Origin: Lycium barbarum
Taxonomy: Eukaryota > Streptophyta > Magnoliopsida > Solanales > Solanaceae
Assembly (NCBI RefSeq): GCF_019175385.1
Contig: NC_083341.1
Location: 89,864,321 to 89,928,320 of the forward strand
DNA: 64,000 bases
Reading direction: 5' to 3'
Under the pieces are notes generated by a model. That model ran no database searches, was not told the DNA's origin, and worked only from the letters and a program-made list of their open reading frames with translations. Positions 8,595 to 62,728 of this stretch are shown one piece after another (position 1 is the first letter of the stretch; each line of letters opens with the position of its first letter). The translations under genes and the position numbers were made by a program.

Positions 8595-8785
8595 TATTTA
8601 TCAACCTACAATCACCTGCAGGAAGAGGGTCAGAAACATTTTTTTTCCCAAATACCGACACTTCTGCTCTTTGGAGCCCCGCTGTAGATACAGCAATACG
8701 TAGGGGAGAATCATCCTAATCATACTGCTTTATAGCACGATCTAAGAATCCAAAGAAGGGTAACATCCTAAATGCCCTGTAGCTT

Positions 8786-8825
8786 CCTGTTTATAGATGT
8801 GGTGCACAACACATCGATAAACAAG
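8786..8825 (-). promoter_or_regulatory. N1 leader hairpin with GTGCAC loop
   Basis: A 40-nt inverted repeat with 16-position arms and an 8-nt loop TTGTGCAC on the minus strand. It lies 41 nt downstream of the primer site. The loop holds the self-complementary hexamer GTGCAC. There is one C/U mismatch at stem position 10. Homologous hairpins are at 13071, 40181, 41409, 55188 and 59973. Confidence 0.78.
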
Positions 8826-8866
8826 ACTCTACGAGACACGGCCTGTAGACATTCCGAGGAAAAACT

Positions 8867-8878
8867 GCTCTGATACCA
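8867..8878 (-). promoter_or_regulatory. N1 primer binding site (initiator Met tRNA type)
   Basis: The minus strand reads TGGTATCAGAGC, the classic complement of the plant initiator-Met tRNA 3' end, 4 nt inside the 5' LTR. It fixes the orientation of N1. Confidence 0.95.
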
Positions 8879-11953: not shown

Positions 11954-13012
11954 AGTCTCGCCTCATGATATTAGTTCCTTCAAGGTGAGGCATAACGATC
12001 ATGATTATTTCATAATGTAATCGGAGGCTACCGACCATACGTCACTCCGACGTGGACATGGTTTTCTTGGGCCCTCGAGCGTGTTGTATGCATGTTATAA
12101 GTATATGTATAAGATAAAAGATCCAGAGCGCTATAGACGCTGATATATGTACATGATACACGTCTATGTATACGATAAAAGAGCCAGAGTGCTATAGACG
12201 CTGATATATGTACATGATGTATGCATATGTATACGGGGAAGATGGGAATGAGGCCAGAGCGTTATATACGCATATCCACCTGATCAGTTGGCATTATATG
12301 ACATGACATCGTCTCGGACGCGGGATGCCCGGACGCGGGATGTACATATTTATGGTTAAATAGATCGGCTGCCGACGCCTCGGCAATATGACATGTTCTA
12401 TTTTTATATATATGAGCAAGAAATGTTTTTTTAAAGGAAAGCTAAGCATGCATGGTATCCGCCCTCAGCGGCCCTCATATGTACAGGTTACGCTTTTATC
12501 CTATGATATGTTCTATGTTTCCATGCAGTTATTGTTCATACGCATATTTCTTGCTAAGTTACTAATCTTGCCTTACATATTCAGTACATTACTCGTACTG
12601 ACCCCTCTTCTTCGGGGGCTGCGTTCATGCCGCGCAGGTACACCCAAAGGTTGCGAAGTTAGCATAGAAGATGTTCCGGCAGAGTCGGTAGGCTTCATTT
12701 GTCCTGTAGTGCTACCAAGTCAGAGTATATGTGCTATGACGCTATGTTCGAGGTTAGAGACTTTGCAGACAGAGTCGTGGGTATAGAGTGTCAGCTTGTA
12801 GACGGCTTCGCCTGTCGATATGTTATTATGTTTCATATCATGGGTCCCATATGATGGTAGTCTTTACTTATGAAAAAAAATTGAGAGCTCACTATGTATT
12901 TTATTCTTAATTGATTCAAGAGTTTATATGTGTAATAAGAGTCAGCGGGTTCGCTCGGCTCCGGATATGGGGTCGGGTGCCCATCACACCCTAGTAAGGT
13001 CGGGGTGTGACA
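11954..13012 (+). repeat. O 5' LTR, second part
   Basis: It starts with the second AGTCT and aligns with 21704-22758 of the solo LTR. It carries a roughly 61-70-bp tandem repeat, about 12110-12275 (GATCCAGAGCGCTATAGACG type), the double hairpin at 12582-12618, and the terminus GTCGGGGTGTGACA. Reading frames of 132-153 residues on the plus strand recur in both LTR copies but match no known domain. Confidence 0.9.
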
Positions 13013-13015
13013 GAG

Positions 13016-13027
13016 TGGTATCGGAGC
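13016..13027 (+). promoter_or_regulatory. O primer binding site
   Basis: TGGTATCGGAGC lies 3 nt after the LTR end. It differs from the initiator-Met complement TGGTATCAGAGC at one position. Confidence 0.88.
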
Positions 13028-13070
13028 AGGTCGGTCTAAGGGTTGTCTGCAAAGTCGTGTCCGGTAGAGT

Positions 13071-13110
13071 CCTGTTTATGAGTGTGAAGCCGGCCACATT
13101 TATAAACAGG
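13071..13110 (+). promoter_or_regulatory. O leader hairpin with GCCGGC loop
   Basis: A 16-position stem, complete apart from two G-U pairs (arms CCTGTTTATGAGTGTG and CACATTTATAAACAGG), closes the 8-nt loop AAGCCGGC. GCCGGC is self-complementary. The hairpin starts 43 nt after the primer site. It is the best-formed member of the six leader hairpins in the window. Confidence 0.82.
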
Positions 13111-13767
13111 AGGCTGCGGGGCATCTAGGAATTGTTGACCTTCTTTCTGTCTTAGATCGTGCGATAGAGCCAAGTCATAGGAAATAAGATTCCTGATACT
13201 AACCGTTAATTTCCGCAGACGCCTGGTAGCAGCGGAAGTGGGCAAGTGACAAGATGGCAAGTTACAAAGGTAAGCTTGAATAATCATTCTGTTACTTGGA
13301 ACTGGAAAGTTCTGATGGCTGGAATATGTCCTATAGCCATATGTTTTGCGAAGTATTGTCGATATTTGCTATGTACTGATTTTAAATAGCGGAAGTGGTG
13401 AACGAGTTCCTGCCAGAATGGATACGTTTAATAAAAAGAGATGCGAAAACAAAAGGGGTAAATGCCATAACCAGACAGTAAACGGGATGTGTTGTTCTAG
13501 AGGACCTATGGGTCTGGCGTGGCGATAAAGGTGCGATCACTGCTATCAGGAATCTGGAAGTCCAGGATAGGAGTTAGCTATATACACGGGCGGAAGGTGA
13601 GCGTTAGAAATCGAGAAGGGCAAAACGGTAATTATAAAAGCAGGGACGTGTTACGGAAATGTCCCAGAATCTGTAAGACTTCGACTTGCTCCAGAACATG
13701 TGATAAAGTTCATGTGAGGAAGCGGACGCGAAAATATCAGTATTAAGACACTGAATTTCAGTGAAGT

Positions 13768-22758: not shown

Positions 22759-22847
22759 GAAAGAAAGAGGGGAAATTTCATATAGCTTCCCGCGGATGGG
22801 CACGAAAGTCTACATACCATTCGGTGAACTAGGGTTTGATACCAACT
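22759..22847 (-). other. Leader piece with Met-tRNA-like primer site (element G)
   Basis: On the minus strand, directly after an LTR end GGGTCGTGACA (22848), the sequence reads AGTTGGTATCAAACCCTAG. TGGTATCAAACC is related to, but not the same as, the TGGTATCAGAGC site of the other elements. The O-family solo LTR is inserted 85 bp into this leader. Confidence 0.5.
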
Positions 22848-34349: not shown

Positions 34350-34865
34350 TGTCACGACCCAACCCCGTAGGCCGTGACTAGTGCCCGATCTGGGCACCCA
34401 AACCCATCTATCAAATGCATTCAAGTATATAGCAGAAGCCGTCAAGGCTATATTCTAAATTTAGATAATTTCCAGAAAAATTTCGGCAGAGTTTCCTTTG
34501 TTTTACAGACTATCCAAAATAACCCCGCGCACAGAAAATACCAACAAAGGCCACACCGGCCAACAAAGCAACATGTAAACATATGCGGACCGGCCGCCGC
34601 GGCGAATGGGATCGCCCAAACACATCATATACACACATCCGTACAGAAAGACCCAACCCACAAACATGTCCACAGACCTCTAAACAGACCGACAGAATCA
34701 TATGACGGGACAGGGCCCCGCCGTACCCAAATAGTCAGATATACAGAAATATATACATAACAAAAGGTGTATGTACCAAAAGTGGACTCCGGATCAAAAG
34801 GGAGTACTCCGAAATAGCAGAAAGTGGAGCCTACAGTGATGGATCACTTGTGTCTGTACCTGCGG
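34350..34865 (-). repeat. N2 terminal LTR segment (end in sense)
   Basis: The last roughly 516 bp of an LTR (GGGTCGTGACA in sense at 34350). It includes the TTTCGGCAGAGTTTCC module (34480-34500) and stops at CTGTACCTGCGGGG, where pol begins without a polypurine tract. The rest of this 3' LTR is absent here. Confidence 0.82.
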
Positions 34866-34869
34866 GGAG

Positions 34870-37115
34870 TGCGTGGTAACCCAACAACGAAATCCATATT
34901 GATCATCTCCCATTTCCAGGCTGGAATTTCTATCTCCTGTAATAATCCACCGAGCTTCTGATGTTCAATTTTAACTTGCTGACAATTTGGGCACTGACCA
35001 ACGAACTCTGCAATATCTTTCTTCATACCGTCCCACTAATACAAACTTCTGAGATCATGATACATTTTAGTGGAACCAGGATGAATAGAATACCGTGCAT
35101 TATGCGCCTCGCCCATGATTTGTCGCCGTAAGCCTGCAACATCCGGTACACAGAATCTGCCTTCATATAATAATACCCCTTCAGGCAAAATTTCAAACGG
35201 AGTCTTTTCTTTATTAAGAGCCACATCTCTGTACTGAACCAGAATAGGATCCTCAAACTGTCGCTGCTTTACTTCTTCTATAATAGATGATTCAGCAACT
35301 GCACGAACAGAAATCACAGAATCTCTAGAATCTGCCAAACGAACTCCAAGGCTGGCCAACTGATGAATTTCACGAACCAAATCTTTCTTACCAGGTGGTA
35401 CATCAGCCAAGCTGCCCATAGACTTGCGGCTAAGTGCATCCGCTACCACATTGGCTTTCCCAGGATGGTACAGAATATCAACGTCATAATCTTTCAATAA
35501 TTCAAGCCATCTTCTCTGCCGCAAATTCAGTTCCTTCTGCTTAAAAATATACTGGAGACTCTTATGGTCCGTATAAATATCAACATGGACCCCATATAAA
35601 TAGTACCGCCAAATCTTCAAAGCGTGAATCACCGCGGCCAACTCAAGATCATGAGTGGGATAATTCTTCTCATGCGGTCTGAGCTGCCGGGAGGCATAGG
35701 CTATAACTCGACCGTGCTGCATCAACACACAGCCTATCCCAATACCAGAGGCATCACAATAGACAACATACCCGTCTGATCCTTCTGGAAGGGCTAGAAC
35801 TGGAGTTGTAATTAATTTTTCTTTCAACATCTGAAAGTTGAACTCGCAGGCATCAGTCCACTGAAATTTTGCTGCTTTCTGAGTAAGCTTCGTCAGTGGT
35901 GCCGCAATAGAAGAAAAAGTTTCCACGAACCTCAGATAATATCCGGCTAACCCCAGAAAACTGGGAACCTCTGTCGGTGTAGTAGGCCTGGGCTAATTCT
36001 GCACAGCTTCAATCTTCTGCGTATCGACCCGAATACCATCTGCTCCAGCAATATGCCCCAAGAATGCCACAGAAGTTAACCAGAATTCACATTTGGAAAA
36101 TTTAGCATATAATTTTTATTGCCGAAGAATGCCAAGTACTGTTCTCAAATGATCTGAATGCTCCCCTGCTGATCGTGAATAAATCAAAATATCATCAATA
36201 AACACAATCACGAACATATCCAGGAAAGGCCAAAATACCCGATTCATCAGATCCATGAATACCGCTGGAGCATTAGTAAGCCCGAAAGACATCACTCTGA
36301 ATTCATAATGCCCGTACCGGGTCCTGAAAGCAGTCTTCGGAATATCTGATTCTCGCACTTGCACCTGATGATAACCCGAGCGCAAATCTATCTTTGAAAA
36401 ATATTTGGAACCCTGAAACTGATCAAACAAATCATCAATCCGGGGGAGGGGATATTTATTCTTTATAGTCACCTTATTTAATTGCCAATAATCAATACAC
36501 ATTCGCAGTGACCCATCTTTCTTTCTTACGAATAATACCGGCGCTCCCCAGGGTGATGTGCTGGGTCTGATAAAGCCTTTTTCCAACAGATCCTTCAGCT
36601 GCTCTTTCAATTCCTTCAATTCAGCCGGTGCCATTATGTACAGAGGAATAGATATAGGCTGCGTATCTGGCAACAAGTCTATAGTGAAATCTATCTCCCG
36701 TTCAGGCGGAAGACCCGGAAGCTCATCTGGAAACACATCTGGGAATTCATTAACAACCGGAACAGACTGAAGAGTAGGTGTCTCGGCTGTAGTATCGTGC
36801 ACCCGAACCAAATGATAGATATAACCTTTCTGAATCATCTTCTTAGTCTTGAGGTACAAAATAAACTTACCCCTCGGCGATGCTGTAGACCCGAACCACT
36901 CTATAACTGGTTCCCCTGGAAACTGAAAACGGACTACCTTTTTATGGCAGTCAACATTAGCATAACAGGAAGCCAACCAGTCCATACCCATAATGACATC
37001 AAATTCCAGCATATCTAATTCTATCAAATCAGCTTTAGTGCAGCGATCACATATAGTCACAGAACAATCCCTGTATACCTGCCTCGCTATAATACAATCC
37101 CCGACCGGGGTAGCT
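34870..37115 (-). pseudogene. pol: N2 protease end, reverse transcriptase, RNase H, integrase finger
   Basis: In sense: the protease C-terminal half ([12 protein letters not shown]), reverse transcriptase (37060-36116: [42 protein letters not shown] with the catalytic Asp pair), a stop after GILRQ and another in the thumb, RNase H (35926-35400: [35 protein letters not shown]), and the H2C2 finger ([11 protein letters not shown] ... CPNCQQVK) with one Trp codon changed to stop near 35037. It ends at VVGLPRT, the start of the integrase core. One unusual residue is DYWQLNKV in place of the DYRQLNKV seen in F. It is the best-preserved pol in the window but still broken. Confidence 0.88.
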
Positions 37116-38227: not shown

Positions 38228-38263
38228 AACATTCGGGGACGAATGTTCTAAAAGGGGGGAGAA
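38228..38263 (+). promoter_or_regulatory. N2 pre-PPT hairpin and polypurine tract (inverted copy)
   Basis: AACATTCG-GGGA-CGAATGTT (38228-38247) is followed by AAAAGGGGGGAGAA, abutting TGTTATGTCCCG at 38264. The arrangement is normal for a 3' LTR on the plus strand, although the sequence after this LTR is a 5'-type primer site. Confidence 0.82.
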
Positions 38264-40125
38264 TGTTATGTCCCGTGTTTTCGCATAATTGGAAATTTAG
38301 AAATAATTGTGCCTTGTATGTTGTAAGGCAATATTTTGATTTTTGTTAATATGCCTATGTTGTTTATGAAAAATATTGGTGTGGAAATGTGGAGGAAGGC
38401 CAAGGGAAAATTTGGAATTTCGGAAATTACAAAACGAGATTTCAACTAATTGGGCTCAACAAATTAATGCAAAAATTGAAGCCCAAAGCCAAGGGGTGGC
38501 CGGCCAAACCATGGCCCAAACCCAACAAATAGATCATGTGCTTTGCATGTGATCATTAAATCAAGGAAGCATACTATATATTCATGCTAATCCTTAGAAT
38601 GTTCAAGAAGAACAAATCAAAAAAAAAAAAATGAAGAGCTCAAAAAGCCCCTCTCGGCCGAACCCTATAGGAAAATAAAAAAAAATTCCAAGCTTTGATT
38701 CTAATCTAAAAATCTTATTCTTCTTGTATACAATTAGTTAAGCGAAAGAACCACGCTTGCGGCAAGTCGGAATTTCAAGAAAAAGGTAAGATTTCTATGT
38801 TTTTGTGTTATGAAATGGATATATATGTTATAGTGATTAGAATTGGATGAAGAATATGGGATTGTGTTGTGTTGTGCATGGCCGTGTGTGTGTGGGTGGA
38901 AGGTGTTTGGCCGTGTACCATATAGGGAGGAGGAGAAGTGGATTCAAGTTTGTTTGGATTGATTAGTTGTATTATGGTGACCTCTTGTGATGCAAATGAA
39001 GGTTTAATGAATTGAATTGGCATTGGAATTCCTTGTATGTAATTATGAGAAATTATGTGAATTTTATATGATTTTTGTGTAAGTATGGGAGTAAGGTTCT
39101 AGAATAAGAATTCATGTTGTTGTTAATGAATTTGGAATGAAACAATGCGAGTTAGTATGTTCGTCGTAGTTGTTGACGTTTCGGGTAGAATATGGAAAGC
39201 GGCGGATTGCTTAAATCCATATAAATCGCTTGGGACATTATTGGATTGTGTTTGAATAATCTTCAATGAGTAAATAAATATGATAATGTTGATATTGGTT
39301 TGATGTTGTGAAGTTTGGATGAAAGTTGTTGAATTAGGTAGAAAGAAAGAATATTGACGTTAGAGTGATTTTGTTATGACTTGTGGTGTTTGTGAGATTG
39401 TGGGTTGTTGTTGTTGTATATGGAGCCGAGCTAAGTCTCGGGGTGTTATATCTATAGGGGAAATGCTACCAAAATTTCGGTAGACAAAAATGAGGTTAAG
39501 TGAATTCTTAAGCCTTGAAATCCCTAATTGGTAACTTTGGCCATTTGCAGATTCTGAACGAAACGGGACTTGAGTTTTGGGCGAGCGTAAGACGCATATA
39601 AGGTATGTAAGGCTACCCATTCCTTCTTTTGGCATGTCTTAGGTATACTAGGTCGATATTGGAGCCCCGAGGGAAATTCTGTTCCTAGAAATCCGAATTG
39701 GAAATTTAGTATTTTTCATTCAATTGAATTGAATTACAAAACTCATATTATATTGAAAAGTGATCTAATGTCTGAAACTTTTGTAAATGTAATCAAGTTG
39801 CCTCGAGACTTCCATGTATGATTCCATAGACCCCAAATGTCTGTGATTCATGTCCGCCACCTCGACTAGACCCGCGGTGGGCCCGCTAGCATCGAGACTT
39901 CTTTGTTTGCTCTATTATGCCCATTCTTGTATAATGTCGGAAAAACACTTTTGGTTATGAATTTGGCTATCATAAATTAATGTTTTGACTGCCACGATAT
40001 TCTAAACTATATTTTGAACCATAAATACTATGTTGGAAATACTTTTGTGAAACGAACCCCGTATTGACTAGTTATTCGAATTATTTGATTAATGAGTTAG
40101 CTTATGATATTATCAAGTTTCAAAA
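38264..40125 (+). repeat. N2 left-arm LTR (terminal part missing)
   Basis: TGTTATGTCCCG onward, related to the N1 LTR. A CATGTGC...GCATGTG box lies upstream of TATATATTC (about 38537-38582), and the conserved CTACCAAAATTTCGGTAG motif is at 39466-39483. It ends ATCAAGTTTCAAAAA directly before the primer site. The roughly 1-kb terminal part present in N1 is absent, in the same way as in the right arm. Confidence 0.85.
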
Positions 40126-40127
40126 AG

Positions 40128-40220
40128 TGGTATCAGAGCGGTTTGTCCTCGGAATGTCCACAGGCCGTGTCTCGTAGAGTCTTGTTTATCGGTGTGTTGT
40201 GCACCGCATCTATAAACAGG
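40128..40220 (+). promoter_or_regulatory. N2 left-arm primer site and leader hairpin
   Basis: TGGTATCAGAGC (40128-40139) matches the initiator-Met complement exactly. After 41 nt comes a 16-position hairpin (40181-40220) with loop TTGTGCAC and one mismatch, carrying self-complementary GTGCAC. Confidence 0.82.
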
Positions 40221-40327
40221 AGGATACAGGGCATTTAGGGTGTTACCTTTCTTTGGAATCTTAGATCGTGCGATAGAGCTGTGCTATTAGGATGATTCTG
40301 ATCTGATTCGTTATTATGTTTGCAGTG

Positions 40328-40504
40328 ATGCCTCCGAAGAAGGCAACGGCGGCCCAGAAGGGAAAGGCAGGGATAGCAGGGACCAGTCAGGCACAACGAG
40401 TTACCCGGGATCGTGTTTATGATTTGCCCGAGGTTGTGCCCCATTCAGAGGGATCCGCTACACCACCACCGGTGGAGCCTGGAGCAGGTCCATCAGCAGC
40501 TCCA
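40328..40504 (+). pseudogene. gag: N2 gag N-terminus, left arm
   Basis: It starts ATG at 40328 (MPPKKATAAQKGKAG), a basic segment typical of this gag group and similar to D (MPVKRKATAAQKGK). After about 59 residues (ending PSAAPGP) it runs into LTR sequence at CAGGGCCCC. This is a truncation at a short shared word. Confidence 0.8.
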
Positions 40505-40690
40505 GGGCCCCACCGTACCCAAATAGTCAGATATACAGAAATATATACATAACAAAAGGTTTATGTACCAAAAGTGGACTCCGGATCAAAAGGGAGTACT
40601 CCGAAATAGCAGAAAGTGGAGCCTACAGTGATGGATCACCTGTGTCTGTACCTGCAGGGAGTGCGTGGTAACCCAACAACGAAATCCATA
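40505..40690 (-). repeat. Second copy of the LTR-end/pol junction segment
   Basis: It repeats about 34710-34890, including the same LTR-to-pol junction (CTGCAGGGAGTGCGTGG against CTGCGGGGAGTGCGTGG). The direct repeat as a whole spans about 40502-41190 against 34710-35395. Confidence 0.82.
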
Positions 40691-40701
40691 TTGATCATCT
40701 C

Positions 40702-41301
40702 CTATTTCCAGGCTGGAATTTCCATCTCCTGTAATAATCCACCGCGCTTCTGATGTTCAATTTTAACTTGCTGACAATTTGGGCACTGACCAACGAACTC
40801 TGCAATATCTTTCTTCATACCGTCCCACCAATACAAACTTCTGAGATCATGATACATTTTAGTGGAACCAGGATGAACAGAATACCGTGCATTATGCGCC
40901 TCGCCCATGATTTGTCGTCGTAAGCCTGCAACATCCGGTACACAGAATCTGCCTTCATATAATAATATCCCTTCAGGCGAAATTTCAAACAGAGTCTTTT
41001 CTTTATTAAGAGCCATATCTCTGTACTGAACCAGAATAGGATCCTCAAACTGTCGCTGCTTTATTTCTTCTATAATAGATGATTCAGCAACTGCACGAAC
41101 AGAAATCACAGAATCTCCAGAATCTGCCAAACGAACTCCAAGGCTGGCCAACTGATGAATTTCACGAACGAAAGCTTTCTTACCAGGTGGTACTACCTCG
41201 GGCAAATCATAAACACGAGCCCGGGTAACTCGTTGTGCCTGACTGGTCCCTGCTATCCCTGCCTTTCCCTTCTGGGCCGCCGTTGCCTTCTTCGGAGGCA
41301 T
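40702..41301 (-). pseudogene. Fused gag N-terminus / RNase H end / integrase finger
   Basis: An open frame of about 200 codons. It starts with MPPKKATAAQKGKAG (41301 downward), runs to VYDLPEVV, and then continues in frame with [20 protein letters not shown] of the RNase H-integrase linker. It carries an intact H2C2 finger ([20 protein letters not shown] ... CPNCQQVK) before ending near EIPAWK. The junction lies in a shared GGTGGTAC/GGTAGTAC-type word. The frame is open throughout, in contrast with the copy at 34844-35400, which has a stop. A protein joining the gag start to an integrase finger might be made if the promoter works, but there is no evidence that it is. Confidence 0.7.
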
Positions 41302-41408
41302 CACTGCAAACATAATAACGAATCAGATCAGAATCATCCTAATAGCACAGCTCTATCGCACGATCTAAGATTCCAAAGAAAGGTAACACCCTAAATGCCC
41401 TGTATCCT

Positions 41409-41501
41409 CCTGTTTATAGATGTGGTGCACAACACACCGATAAACAAGACTCTACGAGACACGGCCTGTAGACATTCCGAGGACAAACCGCTCTGATATC
41501 A
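41409..41501 (-). promoter_or_regulatory. N2 right-arm leader hairpin and primer site
   Basis: The minus strand has TGATATCAGAGC (41490-41501, one change from the other arm). After 41 nt comes the hairpin at 41409-41448, with loop TTGTGCAC. Confidence 0.82.
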
Positions 41502-41504
41502 CTT

Positions 41505-43376
41505 TTTGAAACTTGATAATATCATAAGCTAACTCATTAATCAAATAATTCGAATAACTAGTCAATACGGGGTTCGTTTCTCAAAAGTATTTCCAACATA
41601 GTATTTATGGTTCAAATAGTTTAGAATATCGTGGCAGTCAAAACATTATTTTATGATAGCCAAATTCATAACCAAAAGTGTTTTGCCGACATTATACAAG
41701 AATGGGCATAATAGAGCAAACAAAGAAGTCTCGATGCTAGCGGTCCCACCGCGGGTCTAGTCGAGGTGGCGGACATGAATCACAGACATTTGGGGTCTAT
41801 GGAATCATACATGGAAGTCTCGAGGCAACTTGATTACATTTACAAAAGTTTCAGACATTAGATCACTTTTCAATATAATATGAGTTTTGTAATTCAATTC
41901 AATTGAATGAAAAATACTAAATTTCCAATTCGGATTTCTAGGAACAGAATTTCCCTCGGGGCTCCAATATCGACCTAGTATACCTAAGACATGCCAAAAG
42001 AAGGAATGGGTAGCCTTACATACCTTATATGCGTCTTACGCTCGCCCAAAACCCAAGTCCCGTTTCGCTCAGAATCTGCAAATGGCCAAAGTTACCAATT
42101 AGGGATTTCAAGGCTTAAGAATTCACTTAACCTCATTTTTGTCTACCGAAATTTTGGTAGCATTTCCCCTATAGATATAACACCCCGAGACTTAGCTCGG
42201 CTCCATATACAACAACAACAACCCACAATCTCACAAACACCACAAGTCATAACAAAATCACTCTAACGTCAATATTCTTTCTTTCTACCTAATTCAACAA
42301 CTTTCATCCAAACTTCACAACATCAAACCAATATCAACATTATCATATTTATTTACTCATTGAAGATTATTCAAACACAATCCAATAATGTCCCAAGCGA
42401 TTTATATGGATTTAAGCAATCCGCCGCTTTCCATATTCTACCCGAAACGTCAACAACTACGACGAACATACTAACTCGCATTGTTTCATTCCAAATTCAT
42501 TAACAACAACATGAATTCTTATTCTAGAACCTTACTCCCATACTTACACAAAAATCATATAAAATTCACATAATTTCTCATAATTACATACAAGGAATTT
42601 CAATGCCAATTCAATTCATTAAACCTTCATTTGCATCACAAGAGGTCACCATAATACAACTAATCAATCCAAACAAACTTGAATCCACTTCTCCTCCTAC
42701 CTATATGGTACACGGCCAAACACCTTCCACCCACACACACACGGCCATGCACAACACAACACAATCCCATATTCTTCATCCAATTCTAATCACTATAACA
42801 TATATATCCATTTCATAACACAAAAACATAGAAATCTTACCTTTTTCTTGAAATTCCGACTTGCCGCAAGCGTGGTTCTTTCGCTTAACTAATTGTATAC
42901 AAGAAGAATAAGATTTTTAGATTAGAATCAAAGCTTGGAATTTTTTTTTATTTTCCTATAGGGTTCGGCCGAGAGGGGCTTTTTGAGCTCTTCATTTTTT
43001 TTTTTTTTGATTTGTTCTTCTTGAACATTCTAAGGATTAGCATGAATATATAGTATGCTTCCTTGATTTAATGATCACATGCAAAGCACATGATCTATTT
43101 GTTGGGTTTGGGCCATGGTTTGGCCGGCCACCCCTTGGCTTTGGGCTTCAATTTTTGCATTAATTTGTTGAGCCCAATTAGTTGAAATCTCGTTTTGTAA
43201 TTTTCGAAACTAATTTCCGAAATTCCAAATTTTCCCTTGGCCTTCCTCCACATTTCCACACCAATATTTTTCATAAACAACATAGGCATATTAACAAAAA
43301 TCAAAATATTGCCTTACAACATACAAGTCACAATTATTTCTAAATTTCCAATTGTGCGAAAACACGGGACATAACA
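41505..43376 (-). repeat. N2 right-arm LTR (terminal part missing)
   Basis: The inverted counterpart of 38264-40125, with only scattered substitutions. It ends at ATAACA (43376) followed by target duplication TTTAC, so it forms the true right end of N2. Confidence 0.88.
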
Positions 43377-43381
43377 TTTAC

Positions 43382-45609: not shown

Positions 45610-47930
45610 TCTGTCTGCACGTCTTTTGGGGGTGGGAATAAATGCGGGTATCTAGATTTCGTGTCCTTCTCAGCTTCCCAAGTTATCTCTTCCCAGTTAT
45701 TATTCTTCCACAGGACTTTGACTGAAGCCACGTCCTTGGTTCTAAGCCTTCGGACTTGTTTATCCAGACTGACAATGGGTACTTACTCATAAGATAGCTT
45801 CTCAGTGACTTGTACATCATTTATAGGCACAATCCTGGAAGGATCTCCAAGACAGTTGCGAAGCATGGACTTGTGAAACACTGGGTGGACAGATTCCAAC
45901 TCTGAAGGAAAATCTAGTTCATAAGCTACTTGGTCTACCTTGCGCACAATCTTATAAGGTCCAATATACCGGGGACTAAGCTTCCCCTTCTTGCCATATC
46001 TCATCACGCCTTTCATCGGCGATACCTTCAAGAATACCCAATTGTTAACTTTGAATTCCAAGTTTCGCCGATTATTATCCACATAGGATTTCTAATGTCT
46101 TTGAGCTGTTAGAAGTCGATCCTGAATAAGCTTAACCTTCTCTACTGCATGCTGAATTAAATCTGGGCCCACTAACTTTGTCTTTCCCACATCGAACCAT
46201 CCAATAGGCGATCTACACTTCCTCCCGTACAGAGCTTCCTATGGGGCCATCTGAATACTAGAGTGATAGCTATTGTTATATGCAAATTCAATAACTGGCA
46301 AGTGATCATCCCAATTTCCTCCAAAGTCTAGCACACAGTCTCTCAGCATATCTTCAAGGGTTTGGATAGTGCGCTCAACCTATCTGTCAGTCTGTGGATG
46401 GAATGTTGTATTAAGTCTCACCTGCGTTCCCAATCCTTCTTGGAAGGATCTCCAGAAATTAGTTGTAAACCGTGCTCCTCTATCCGTAATAATGGACACT
46501 GGAATACCGTGAAGTCGCACAATCTATTTGATATATAACTTTGCATAATCTTCTGCTGAGTACGTCGTTCTGACTGGCAGAAAAGGGGTTGACTTCGTGA
46601 GTCTATCCACTATCACCCATATAGAATCATACTTACGGTGGGAACGAGTTAAAACTGTAATAAAGTCCATATTAATCGCCTCCCATTTCCAAGTTGGAAT
46701 CTCTATAGCTTGCAGCAATCCTCCAGGCTTCTGATGCTCCATCTTGTCCTGTTGGAAATTAAGACGTTAGGCCACGAACTTCGCTATATCCTTTGTCATA
46801 CCATCCGACCAGTATATTGATTTAAGATCACGGTACATCTTTGTCGCTCCTGGATCGACGGAATAACGAGAGTAATGGGTTCCTCTAAGATCTGCCGACG
46901 TAGCCTTCCCATATTAAGAACACATAATCTTCCTCGATATCTGAGGATTCCATCCGCAGAGACGTCAAATTGTGACTTCTCCTTCTGGGAAAGCACATAT
47001 CTATAATGAACTAACACAGGGTCTTCGTATTGGGGCTTTTTTACTTCCTCCATTAAGGATTAAACAGCCAAGTCCTGAACAGTGACTCCCGCACTCCCCG
47101 GGTCTGTCAAGGAAACTCCTAGGCTGGCTAGCTGTTGACGTTCCTGAGCTAGCTCCCTCTTTTCCAATTGAACAACACACAGACTACTCATGGATTTGTG
47201 GCTGAGAGCGTCAGCTACCACATTCGCCTTTCCCGAGTGGTATAAAATGCTCACATCATAATCCTTCATTAGTTCCAACCATCGCCGTTGCCGTAAATTT
47301 AATTCCTTCTGTTTGAAAATATATTGGAGGCTCTTATGATCTATATAAATATCCACATGAACACCATATAAATAATGTCCCTATATCTTCAACGCATGAA
47401 TAACGGCAGCCAACTCTAGGTCGTGGGTCGGATAATTCTTCTCGTGTTTCCACAACTTCCTTGAGGCATAAGCTATTACTTTACCATGCTGCATAAACAC
47501 ACTACCTAATCCAACACCTGAAGCATGACAATAAATAACGTAACTCTTCGATCTTTGAGGAGTGTCAAGACTGGGGCCGAAGTCAACCTATCCTTTAACT
47601 CCTGAAAGTTGCGCTCACACACATCTGTCCACTGAAACTTAGCCGATCTTTGAGTCAGCTTCGTCAGTGGTGCAGAAATAGAAGAAAATCCTTCTATAAA
47701 TCTCCTATAGTAACCAGCTAACCCCAGTAAACTACGGACCTTTATAGGCGTTGTAGACCTTGGCCAATTCTTCGCAACTTCAATCTTCTGAGTGTCTACC
47801 CGAATGCCCTCAGCTGAAATAATATAGCCAAGAAAAGTTACAGAATTTAGCCAAAATTCACATTTTGATAATTTGGCATATAACTCCCGAGCCTGAAGAA
47901 TTCCAAGAACGGTACGCAAATGGTTTGAAT
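45610..47930 (-). pseudogene. pol: D pol, C-terminal half (RT end, RNase H, integrase, chromodomain)
   Basis: In sense from 47930: [20 protein letters not shown] (reverse transcriptase after FIDD), [20 protein letters not shown], a frameshift near 47560, RNase H ([20 protein letters not shown]; the usual YTDHKS is YIDHKS), a damaged integrase finger, core ([19 protein letters not shown]..., [11 protein letters not shown]) with several stops, the GPY-type domain (KLSPRYIGPYKIVRKVDQV, 46082-45783) and chromodomain remnants (VASVKVLWKNNN) to about 45620. Domain order is normal. The first part of reverse transcriptase lies beyond E. Confidence 0.85.
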
Positions 47931-53500: not shown

Positions 53501-55284
53501 ATTCTGAACTTTCCGTATAGAAGAACTTCATAAGTCTTTCTCATTTGTTCTATACCTTGCCTTTCCATTTCACATTTGCCTTTATACTTTAATCACATAG
53601 ATCACGTCATATCTTTTAGTTACTTCCTCGCTAGGCTTTACTTATTTTCATAACAATCCTTATTATATTCACATTATATCCTGTTCGTAATCAATCCTAT
53701 AGTGTAACACTTCGTAACCTTTTACCTTTTTTGGTCAATCTTATCTTTAATACCTCACAAGCTGTCCTATCAATACATTCATATTGTCACTATTCCTCTT
53801 CCTCTGTACTCTTGTCTCAATCATACTATTACTTCTTCTAACTATAAACTCGTCGTAATTTATCCCTACTTATCCGTTCACTTGATACTTCACTAAAACG
53901 TTTTGTTAAGATTTTCCACCTTTTTCTAAATCATCCCTTAGTGTCACAAGCCCTTCCAAATTATCCTAGCACTTCATCAACAACACATGGAACACATGAT
54001 CTAAGACAGCCCACAAGTTTGAGTTTTCCTTCTACAAATCCCATCTCCAATTAGTTGATTAAGAACTAATAAACTCAAGGACATAAAGATATGATGAAAT
54101 GTTACCTCAAGAACACAAGAATGCTCCAACTCCAAGATTACGTCACCATGAAGCCTCCTCCAAAACCACCACAAAAAGAAGAACTAGAATCCGACAAGCA
54201 CCACGGGACTTCTAATGCTTGATTCACATAGTTTACCTTCAGATTTGTTCTTGGGTCATGAACGAACTATTTAGTTCATAAACTACTTTCTGTATGCTTT
54301 GTACTCTTCAAATAAAAGTGAAACTTAATTGCTAGACGTTTTTGCTCTTCAACATGAGCTTTTTCTAAGGTAAAATGTGGCTGGAAAGTATTCTGGTCCG
54401 TTCAAATGAATTCCAAACTTGTTGCTCATATTTGCTTCTTCGAAATAAAATTTCCCAAATAAGAATGATACCTCTTATGGATGACATGGAGGGTATCTCT
54501 TAAAACTTTAATACAACCTGATAAATTTACCATATCGATATCGATCTCATAATTACTATTACTATCAATTCAACCGTTAACTTTATTTCTCGAAGTCAGA
54601 CGTACTTGCAACTTAGTCAAATCTTATCATTACTGTTGACATGACCTTTCAAGACATTTTACGAATTTATATCTCATTCTCTTTTTATTTCTAGGAAAAT
54701 TTTGGCAGAGTTTCCTCTGTGTTTCTCGCTATCCCAAAACCTGTACGCAGGAAATACCAAAAATGCCTCACAGGGCCAACATATATACGTATATATCATA
54801 TCATATCATATCGTAGCCACACAGGGCTCCCAATTTCAAGTAAAGATATAAAGATGTCGAAACTTACCTCATATATCACACCTCGAGACGTACCTGATCT
54901 TTTCACGATCTGTCCTGTTATACCTTCCTGTCTACCTTCCGTTTCATTCTTCAACTTTACATTTCAATCATACTTCAATATTCTAACCTTATCTGACATG
55001 CATCTTTCGCACCGTTGCTTACCTGTGTACTTTGTAACTTCGAATATCATCGGTCACTTTCTTCTATCGATACCGTTCTTCAGCTGAAATCAAGGGTTAG
55101 TATAAGGAATTTCATTTCCTACGGCTGGGCTCTATCGCACGATCTTAGATATGAAAGAAAGGTAACATCCTAAATGTCCTGTAACTTCCTGTTTATAGAT
55201 GTGGTTCACAACACACCGATAAACAAGACTCTACTAGACACGGTCTGTAGACACTCCGAGGATGAACTGCTCTGATACCACTTT
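50590..55284 (-). other. E internal region (no protein recognised)
   Basis: It begins with a C-rich tract (polypurine in sense, 50591-50603) and an imperfect pre-PPT hairpin (50605-50625). Some 4.2 kb of sequence follow that is strongly pyrimidine-rich on the plus strand and lacks any recognisable gag, pol or long open frame. Frames up to 138 residues on the plus strand (antisense) are composition artefacts. Near the 5' end lies the shared module (54680-54850), and then a leader with the standard motifs. Nothing else was identified. Confidence 0.6.
55188..55280 (-). promoter_or_regulatory. E leader hairpin and primer site
   Basis: The primer site TGGTATCAGAGC is at 55269-55280 on the minus strand. 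41 nt further in sense is the 40-nt hairpin 55188-55227. Its loop reads TTGTGAAC, so the GTGCAC palindrome of its relatives is broken by one substitution. Confidence 0.82.
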
Positions 55285-57480: not shown

Positions 57481-57609
57481 TGTCCCTCCATAGGACACGT
57501 GCCCCCCCTAGTGACTCATCATTTTTCTTTTTTTTTTAATTAAATCGGTGGGGCCCACTTAATTATCTACTTAGCGAACTTAATTAATCTTTAATTAATC
57601 CCTAATCTC
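55285..57609 (-). repeat. E 5' LTR, truncated at its start
   Basis: It matches 47931 to about 50392. The sense terminus reads CCTGACA instead of CGTGACA (one substitution at 55290). The TA repeat at 57449-57478 is 30 nt against 88 nt in the partner. Confidence 0.88.
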
Positions 57610-58700
57610 AGATCTATTTTTGAGAACCACTTGGCACCCTGCGACTGATCGAATAAATCATCAATCCTTGAAAATGGGTATTTGTTCTTTATCGTGACCT
57701 TGTTCAGTTGTCTATAGTAAATACACATACGTAAAGAACCATCCTTCTTCCTTACGAACAACACAGGCGCTCCCCATGGCGATGAACTAGGTATAATAAA
57801 GCCTTTTTCAAGGAAATCCTTCAGTAGCGCCTTTAACTCTTTTAATTCTACAGGGGCCATTCGATAAGGAGGAATAGATATGGGCTTAGTATTCGAAAAC
57901 ACATCGATAGTAAACTCAATCTACCGCTCTGGTGAGAGACCTGGAAGCTCATCTAGGAACACATCCGGGAACTCATTTACCACTGGGACAGATTGAAGAG
58001 TCGGCGGTTTTGCTTCTGTTTTTTGAAGCCGGACCAAGTGATAAATATAGCCTTTGGCAATCATCTTTCCCGCTTTGATGTAAGAAATAAATCGACCCAT
58101 CAGAGACGCCGCATTGCCGTTCCATTCCAACACTGGTTCTCCTGGGAACTAGAATCGAACCACCTTCGTTCTACAATCAACGTTAGCATAACAGGAGGCT
58201 TGCCAATCCATACCCATAATAACATCAAAATCTAACATCTCCAGCACATGTAGGTCAGTAGTAGTATGACGATCGCAAACTATGATCACATAACCCCTAT
58301 ATACCTACCTAGATACCACTGGATCTCCTACAAGTGTAGCTACCTTAAAAGGTTTGATTGGCTTCAGTTTCATCCCCATATGATTTGCGACATTAGGAGT
58401 AATATATAACAGAGTAGAACTTGGATCAATCAATGCATACACGTGATAGGAGAATATCGATAATATACCTGTAACAACGTCTGGGGAAGATTGAAGATCC
58501 TGCCGTCCCGCCAGTGCATATATACGATTCTGAGGGCCACTTGAACTGGATGCTCCTCCACTGCCTCTGCCACGGCCTGCTGGAGTCTGGGATGTTTGTC
58601 TAGGAAGGCACACAGAAAATGATGAACAAATTGCTGATCCGGCGGGCTGAGCCTTGTCTCTGTCATTTCTCAATGGAAAATCGCGTATCAAATGACCAAC
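57610..58700 (-). pseudogene. pol: D protease and start of reverse transcriptase
   Basis: In sense: a Gly/Ser linker (AGRGRGSGGASSSSGPQNR) and the protease with ALIDPSSTLLYITP. The Gly of the DPGST active site in F is Ser here. Then come the [12 protein letters not shown] and FPDVFLDELPGL linkers, and reverse transcriptase from [20 protein letters not shown] through [16 protein letters not shown] to AKWFSKIDL, where E begins. Stops lie at about 58304, 58150 and 57920. The frame is broken, and the catalytic part of reverse transcriptase is deleted. Confidence 0.85.
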
Positions 58701-59861
58701 CCGTCCGAAGGCATAACAAGCACCTGAACCTAAGTGGCACTGTCCAGAATGTGGCCTGCCACACTGAGTACACCGTGGGAGGGGTGGTCTCGTCCAACTA
58801 GAATCACCTCTATACTAAGACCCTGAAACTCTAGAACTCTGGCCCGGTCCTGAATTGATAGGGCGGTCAAATCTCTTGCCGGCAAATTGAGGAGGTGCGC
58901 TGGCCACTAATTGGCCTAAATACCTGGAATATTGGTGTCTTCTCCCTCCTATGTACTCACCACCAGCACCAACATATCTGGCGCTCTTACTACGTCCTCT
59001 TTCCAAATCAAGTTCACCTCCCTACGGCTGCTGCTACTCTTCCAAGATCTGGGCATGAGCCTGAACACGAGCAATATCCATTCCGTCTTGAAGTGAGGCC
59101 GTCAAGAATTTCTTAATAAAATATGGCCCCAACCCACTCACGAATCGATGCACACAGTCTCCCATGTCGGCTACCATGGCTGGGGCATACCTGGCCAAAT
59201 AATTAAAGTGGAGACTGTGTTCCAAAGCGCTTATATTCCCTTTCTTGAGATTCAAAAACTTATCAGCTCGGGCCCGTCGAACCTCCGGTGGTAAATAATG
59301 TCGCAGAAAAGCATTTCTGAATTCTTCCTAAATTGGGGGAGGTGCATTGGCTCCTCGCGAAGATATCCAAGCATTATACCACTAGACGGCGACATCCCGC
59401 AATCTATACGAAGCCAACTCTATTGACTCAATATCTGAAACATATATTATCCGCAACGTCACCATCATCTCGTCTATAAAGCCTTACGGGTCCTCATTTG
59501 GTTTCGATCCATAGAACTCCGGAGGATTCAGACTAATAAAATCGCGGGCTCTTGCAGTCACCGCCCAATCACCTTGGCCCGCACCCTGCCACTGAGCCTG
59601 CGTGGCAATTAACTAAGTCAGAAACTGAATAGCTTCTATCATCTGCTGGCCTAGAGCTCCAGGCGGTGGAACTGGAGGTGTTGGGGCTGGAGCTGAAGCT
59701 CTTTCCTGCTCCGCTGACAAGGGTGGAGCATGAGAGGTCCAGGAGGAAACCTCGTTATGAGACTCACCCTCTTCTACCTCCGTCGGTGGTTCCCGTTCAA
59801 CTCTTCTTGCGGCCACCGTCTTGCCTTTCTGGGCTGCTGTAGCTTTCCTCTTCACAGGCAT
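58701..59861 (-). pseudogene. gag: D gag
   Basis: The likely start is ATG at 59861 (MPVKRKATAAQKGK), aligned with MPPKK of N2. The frame runs through a Pro/Ala-rich stretch to a stop at 59613. The capsid-like domain (LEHSLHFNYLARYAPAMVAD, VHRFVSGLGPYFIKKFLTAS, DIARVQAHAQILEE) lies at about 59250-59034. A CTQCGRPHSGQC motif and a knuckle that reads CYAFGRVGHLIRDF follow, where two Cys of CCHC have become Phe. Several stops and frameshifts separate the parts. Confidence 0.82.
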
Positions 59862-59972
59862 CGCTGAAATCATAACACACGATTAGGACAGGAGGAAAAC
59901 CTGATAACATGACTCTACCGCAGGATCTAAGATGAGAAAGAATGTCAATTATTACTATAGGCCCCGCAGCCT

Positions 59973-60066
59973 CCTGCTTATAAGTGTGGCGCGCTTCACA
60001 CCCATAAATAGGACTCTACCGGACACGACTCGTAGACATACCCTAGGACGAACTGCCCTGATATCA
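59973..60066 (-). promoter_or_regulatory. D leader hairpin (GCGCGC loop) and primer site
   Basis: The primer-site-like TGATATCAGGGC is at 60055-60066 (two changes from consensus). 42 nt further in sense is a 16-position hairpin (59973-60012) with loop AAGCGCGC and one A/C mismatch. GCGCGC is self-complementary. Confidence 0.8.
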
Positions 60067-62246: not shown

Positions 62247-62700
62247 GACCGAAAGATTCGAGATCTAGAGTTCATTGTTGGAGAGAAGGTTCTATTGAAG
62301 GTTTTGTCCATCATGGGTGTGATGAGATTTGAGAAAAAGGGTAAGCTTAGCCCTAGGTTCATTGGTCCATTTGAGATCCTTCGTCGTGTGGGAGAGGTAG
62401 CTTACGAGTTGGTATTACCTCTAGGTTTGTCAGGTGTTCACCCGGTGTTTCATGTATCCATGTTGAAGATTATCATTCAGACAGTTCTTATATTATTTAG
62501 TGGGATTCGGTTCTATTTGATAGGAATTTGTCTTTTGGGGCGGAGTCGATAGCCATCTTGGATAGATAGGTTCGAAAATTCAGGTCAAAAGAGATAGCTT
62601 CGGTGAAGGTCCAGTAGAAGCACCATCCAGTCGAGGAGGCTACAGGGGAGACTGAGGCAGATATACATTGTAGATATCTCAATCTTTTCACCCAGTCAGG
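62247..62700 (+). pseudogene. pol: Older integrase C-terminal domain and tail (element H)
   Basis: It continues the frame broken at 34229: [39 protein letters not shown] and [11 protein letters not shown] (GPY-type domain). A frameshifted, stop-containing chromodomain-like tail follows (KEIASVKVQ..., YLNLFTQSGTF) to about 62700. The ATGCG duplication of D sits exactly at the split. Confidence 0.85.
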
Positions 62701-62728
62701 TACATTTCCTTCATTTCATTCTATGTCC

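Follow-up and report, generated by a model that had tools for sequence, protein, structure and literature searches.

A leader hairpin with self-complementary loops as a likely kissing-loop dimerisation signal in apparent chromodomain Ty3/gypsy elements of Lycium barbarum

In HIV-1, the SL1 hairpin of the leader lies 3' of the primer site, with an internal loop beneath it and purines as the spare letters of its apical loop. Among plant LTR retrotransposons, the BARE elements of barley belong to Ty1/copia. The portion of PMC5874298 cited here describes SL1 as a hairpin with a palindromic loop, mainly GCGCGC, GUGCAC or GUGCGC, and an internal loop that binds Gag/NC. Kissing loops have been proposed to initiate RNA dimerisation in Ty1 (PMC5454406, in the part cited), and for Ty3 the corresponding part of PMC11381356 places the palindrome PAL6 at nt 391-396, among three palindromes counted in the GAG frame, with one element probed. 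For BARE, conserved dimerisation and packaging signals are claimed to be retained in the Gag-less BARE2, according to the sections of PMC3735527 used here. In the literature on dimerisation, packaging and leader structure of LTR retrotransposons and plants, judged by titles and abstract openings, we found no such signal for plant Ty3/gypsy elements among the papers listed, and the word "dimer" is absent from the main text of a 2025 review on host factors in the plant LTR-retrotransposon life cycle. The choice and pairing of RNA by plant LTR retrotransposons seem to be little studied.

The window analysed here is a stretch of 64,000 nt of the Lycium barbarum genome with elements that we take to belong to the plant Tekay/Del lineage of chromodomain Ty3/gypsy retrotransposons. 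The initial annotation had placed a 40-nt hairpin in six leaders of this window. A scan of both strands, allowing at most 16 mismatches to four of the 40-mers, returned these six places on the expected strands and one poor match (30914, 15 mismatches). Each hairpin lies 3' of a Met-type primer-binding site, at a distance of 43, 41, 41, 41, 41 and 42 nt in O, N1, N2a, N2b, E and D, respectively, within the 41-43 nt annotated. The features are as follows.

13058..13123, + strand: O leader, whole tiered stem-loop; 16-bp core 13071-13110, loop AAGCCGGC
13016..13027, + strand: O primer-binding site, Met type, one change
8773..8838, - strand: N1 leader stem-loop; core 8786-8825, loop TTGTGCAC
8867..8878, - strand: N1 primer-binding site
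40168..40233, + strand: stem-loop of N2 arm a; core 40181-40220, loop TTGTGCAC; one middle-stem pair lost
40128..40139, + strand: primer-binding site of N2 arm a
41396..41461, - strand: stem-loop of N2 arm b; core 41409-41448, loop TTGTGCAC; same middle-stem loss
41490..41501, - strand: primer-binding site of N2 arm b
55175..55240, - strand: E leader stem-loop; core 55188-55227, loop TTGTGAAC, which misses a palindrome by one letter
55269..55280, - strand: E primer-binding site
59960..60025, - strand: D leader stem-loop; core 59973-60012, loop AAGCGCGC; outermost lower pair lost
60055..60066, - strand: D primer-binding site, two changes
59037..59327, - strand: gag piece of D (PF03732, Pfam), downstream of the D leader

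The arms of 16 positions and the 8-nt loop are present in all six leaders, with 16 of 16 pairs in O and 15 of 16 in each of N1, N2a, N2b, E and D. The loop letters agree with the annotation, and the loop hexamer is self-complementary in five of the six, the exception being E (GTGAAC). The two N2 arms form an inverted duplication (window 38262-43378, 98.5% identity) with the two leaders head to head; being copies of each other they count as one, so that the window alone offers about four to five independent cases. The break in the 4-bp middle stem is common to both copies and is therefore probably older than the duplication. N2 is rearranged and contains an integrase fragment, which lies between the two leaders in a stretch 97% like window 34711-35401. 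A weaker primer-like site, TGGTATCAAACC (window 22833-22844, - strand), has no such hairpin 3' of it in the letters examined.

To these cases we added leaders from the window's own assembly, which has 164 contigs and 1.67 Gb. When its DNA was searched with the O leader, 2703 candidates were obtained, and the 40 of them that were scored are all 98-100% identical. An anchor pattern consisting of the primer site, the spacer and CGTGTCNNGTAGAGTC, which ends at the first letter of the hairpin, matched 14,559 + 14,739 = 29,298 places, while the reversed control matched none. All 100 anchored places listed, which come from a single contig and lie within its first 22 Mb, were taken blind to the hairpin, and 72 nt around each were folded. 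An 8-nt apical loop was obtained in 93 of the 100 sampled leaders, and a self-complementary 6-mer lies within the folded loop in 84, in the usual register in 80 and in a shifted one in four (TTGTACAC three times, TTGCGCAC once). Among the 16 failing loops, eight are one letter off a palindrome, five are palindromic but folded differently, and three (L066, L114, L159) are neither. The palindrome is retained in 15 of 30 folded loops of the GAGCTC lineage, which is older. The distance from primer site to hairpin is 41-44 nt in 99 of the 100 leaders, a range limited by the anchor pattern. All 110 distinct primer-site leaders found in 286,680 bases carry the loose GTAGAGTC anchor, most of that DNA having been selected by the anchor. 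Outside this genome, no relatives were found in IMG/VR (patterns and one protein query), GTDB (patterns) or plasmids, and peptides translated from two leaders had no protein match. The 15 + 42 IMG/VR and GTDB loci with the primer-site letters look, by their text and titles, like bacterial or phage genes.

The 40-nt hairpin caps a 66-nt element which consists, from the base upwards, of a 5-bp lower stem, a one-letter mismatch, a 4-bp stem, a 2x2 purine loop, a 16-17 bp stem and the apical loop. We compared this element across a structure-blind alignment of 124 distinct leaders, from which nine duplicate texts had been removed; L066, whose hairpin is interrupted by other sequence, was dropped before pairs were counted, as were, from the 124-leader set, L175 and L192 with shortened hairpins. 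Pairs of the lower stem form in 103-116 of 120-124 usable leaders per position, which is poorer than in the upper stem. The mismatch above it is 1x1 in most folds and a bulge in some. The 2x2 internal loop has AG on its 5' side, where the anchor fixes it, and RG on its 3' side in 120 of 124 leaders; together with the stem beneath, it is visible in 87 of 100 folds. The two spare letters of the apical loop are both 5' of the hexamer and mostly T (80 and 99 of 124).

This layout resembles HIV-1 SL1 in that a hairpin follows the primer site, carries a GC-rich self-complementary hexamer (two of the hexamers are identical to those of HIV-1) and has an internal loop below, but differs in its upper stem of 16-17 bp and in the spare letters of the 8-nt loop, which are both on the 5' side and mostly T rather than purines. 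The likeness implies no kinship, and an Rfam search with the O leader (12950-13250) gave three weak matches, ascribed to chance, that all fall far short of the gathering score. Ty3, likewise a Ty3/gypsy element, has a 6-nt palindrome in the apical region of a hairpin near its 5' end, as described in the part of PMC11381356 cited; unlike PAL6 as treated there, the hairpin studied here lies between primer site and gag and its loop covaries. Ty1 also offers kissing loops in an LTR retrotransposon; in the cited part of PMC5454406, however, two different hairpins with mutually complementary motifs kiss. BARE is likewise a plant LTR element, but the portion of its account used here (PMC3735527) holds no loop-loop covariation of the kind seen in these leaders.

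The initial annotation had suggested that the loop hexamers be compared with the background, and they are self-complementary far more often: in 84 of 100 leaders, against 6-10% in other hairpins. The control set was drawn from 271,220 bases, with the leaders excluded on both strands, and comprised other hairpins whose stem has 7 bp and whose loop has 8 nt; 74 of 729 contain any palindromic loop 6-mer, and the last six loop letters are palindromic in 43 of 729, of which 35 are TA repeats. Of the 124 aligned leaders, 100 have a palindrome in the hexamer window (GTGCAC 42, GCGCGC 34, GAGCTC 20, GCCGGC 3 and GTCGAC 1). The next-best window is palindromic in 48%, with a single palindrome. Of the seven other leading windows listed, six have one palindrome in at least two copies and one has two; this last sits at the middle stem (CTATAG 18, CTGCAG 7).

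Further hexamers were sought with a pattern that allows only A or C at the third loop position and only G or T at the fourth, and that has 2,933 matches in the genome. Among the 100 of them that were listed, 97 are complementary at positions 3-4 and 88 are fully palindromic: GCCGGC in 73, GCATGC in eight and GTCGAC in seven. The seven GTCGAC leaders, two of which are alike, are a subfamily with O-like spacers, and six of the seven show a matched change from T-A to C-G in the stem. The GCATGC loops (L203-L210) are spread over several leader backgrounds and may represent double CpG decay of GCGCGC or repeated swaps; since the former is possible, we regard GCATGC as doubtful and leave it out of the count. 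Five self-complementary hexamers are thus found in families: GTGCAC, GCGCGC, GCCGGC, GAGCTC and GTCGAC.

Covariation, the other analysis proposed in the initial annotation, was assessed by mutual information corrected for background in the 124 aligned leaders, and both the loop and some of the stem pairs covary. Loop positions 2 and 5 are paired in 122 of 124 leaders (T-A 48, C-G 44, A-T 29). Among 7503 column pairs, loop pair 2-5 ranks second, stem pair 14 third, loop pair 3-4 sixth and stem pair 7 fourteenth, the top-ranked pair being two adjacent unpaired columns; in the first set of 105 leaders, the same four pairs score higher than each of the 7021 pairs whose columns are four or more apart. 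Most pairs of the upper stem are conserved without covariation, and loop pair 1-6 does not covary either. Because GTAG and AG on the 5' side belong to the anchor and are thereby fixed, no covariation can appear in the middle stem or the internal loop. The letters at stem positions 11 and 12 are as originally read, but the compensatory change claimed for them is weak, runs mostly via G-U and ranks 1615th and 956th of 7503. Set against three leaders of the window, L186 from the GAGCTC lineage has 6-8 different letters among the 16 of its 5' arm and 5-8 among the 16 of its 3' arm, and despite these differences it folds into the same hairpin, with the mismatch placed as in N1.

We also considered how far relatedness could account for these patterns. 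A weakly resolved tree built from 86 columns, with the hairpin columns left out, requires five changes from one of the four main palindromes to another, and in it the GAGCTC group is one supported branch. An independent-pairs test of loop positions 2-5 had too few pairs (two on starred branches, four on all), mostly matched, with a median p of 0.5; for stem position 12 the test came out either way. Neutral evolution was simulated on the tree of the 124 leaders from a palindromic start, with one substitution model, all sites alike and CpG decay not modelled. The simulations retained on average 15% palindromes; none of 2000 reached the observed 81%, one run had at least four palindromes, and no run combined the two. 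With the rate halved, 81% was reached in 71 of 2000 runs and four palindromes in one, again never together. The independent changes are few and come from one genome.

Given the predicted structure, where it lies, how it is conserved and the matched double changes in stem and loop, we consider it likely that the leader hairpin acts as an SL1-like kissing-loop dimerisation signal, as the initial annotation had proposed, and that it probably serves packaging as well. In our model, the stable hairpin would expose the 8-nt loop with two unpaired letters and a self-complementary hexamer, and two element RNAs would first kiss via identical hexamers. The predicted loop duplexes between identical hexamers have energies of -7.5 to -11.7 kcal/mol, compared with -0.1 to -3.8 for unlike hexamers, except for GUGCAC with GCGCGC (-6.6). 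Thereafter the long stems, being almost self-complementary, could exchange partners to give an extended duplex; its predicted energy in O, N1 and D is -42 to -55 kcal/mol, versus -31 to -41 for the two hairpins apart, and in E, with its broken hexamer, -33 versus -30. The all-purine 2x2 internal loop would be a likely contact for Gag, coupling the dimer to packaging.

The internal loop could also be read the other way round, the hairpin being a packaging signal bound by Gag in which the stem and the purine loop are functional and RNA pairing by the apical loop is secondary or absent. Conservation of the 3' side of the internal loop, which is outside the anchor (RG in 120 of 124), fits such a role, and the need of dimerisation for Ty1 and Ty3 packaging is still debated, to judge from the parts of PMC4974528 and PMC11381356 cited. 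We nevertheless find this account improbable, since it gives no reason to expect matched double changes by which the hexamer remains self-complementary. The palindromic loops are equally left unexplained if the hairpin controls translation as a scanning block, a shunt or an element of an upstream ORF. The hairpin of D does lie between primer site and gag, and each of the six elements has one sense frame, of 28-72 codons, that runs through the hairpin without a stop; this frame, however, is short, begins at a stop one codon 5' of the hairpin and lacks an ATG in five of the six (D has one, late), which makes a translational role quite unlikely.

The hexamers are palindromic as DNA too, as would suit a protein-binding site or a small-RNA source rather than an RNA contact; yet no single site is kept, and the hexamer varies by family while the register, the 8-nt loop and the stem pairing persist, so that we give an explanation at the DNA level very little credence. 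We give just as little to common ancestry with CpG decay as a source of palindromes without selection. Part of the variety could have arisen in this way, because GTGCAC and GCATGC are each two CpG decays from GCGCGC and GCATGC is held by several backgrounds. But GCCGGC, GAGCTC and GTCGAC require paired changes that decay of GCGCGC cannot give, and the neutral simulation, which started from palindromes and omitted CpG decay, fails to produce the observed pattern.

If the hairpin is a dimerisation signal, it matters which elements share it. Pfam identified pieces of gag, RVP_2, RVT_1, RNase H, rve and Chromo in several window elements, and no domain in O or N1, where one frame of each was scanned. 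Seven pol pieces of the window, used as queries in translated searches, found pol of D on both sides of the nested E (45627-47779 and 57600-58532), and none in the DNA that the LTRs of O, N1 and E enclose; E has no reading frame of at least 75 residues. The hairpin could be placed 5' of gag, as annotated for all leaders, in D, where the gag piece was found, but not in the remaining ones. The claim that pol-bearing and pol-less elements have the signal in common holds within the window for its architecture but not for the loop letters: D (GCGCGC) is the sole pol-bearing window element with an intact leader, and the pol-less hexamers differ from it. What could be shared in trans is therefore the architecture; trans packaging would read it, and dimers would form mostly within families.

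A bolder and rather doubtful extension of the dimerisation reading is that the hexamers are exchangeable, largely exclusive pairing codes, while the shared hairpin with its Gag-recognised base allows trans packaging of pol-less members. Each family would form dimers mostly among its own members, the best partner of a loop being an identical copy, in agreement with the energies predicted above. If so, matched hexamer swaps would divide the pools for co-packaging and recombination within one genome.

The analysis defines an element of 66 nt that most of the 100 leaders possess, these being a sample of the 29,298 anchored places, and in which natural loop swaps represent ready-made compensatory mutants. 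As a dimerisation signal, it would add an apparent plant chromodomain Ty3/gypsy group to retroviruses, Ty1 and Ty3 as users of kissing loops, and it offers a handle on trans packaging of pol-less elements and on recombination between families.

Two observations concern the surroundings of these leaders. An integrase/chromodomain piece just past the D LTR (window 62247-62716, + strand) is on the strand opposite D and is thus part of another element. Leaders of the O type occur head to tail, about 5-6 kb apart, at C11:69374746-69385804, C11:46135156-46145722 and C1:25236280-25264361; in the C1 series one gap is about double, and the spacing is as in tandem LTR-internal-LTR arrays.
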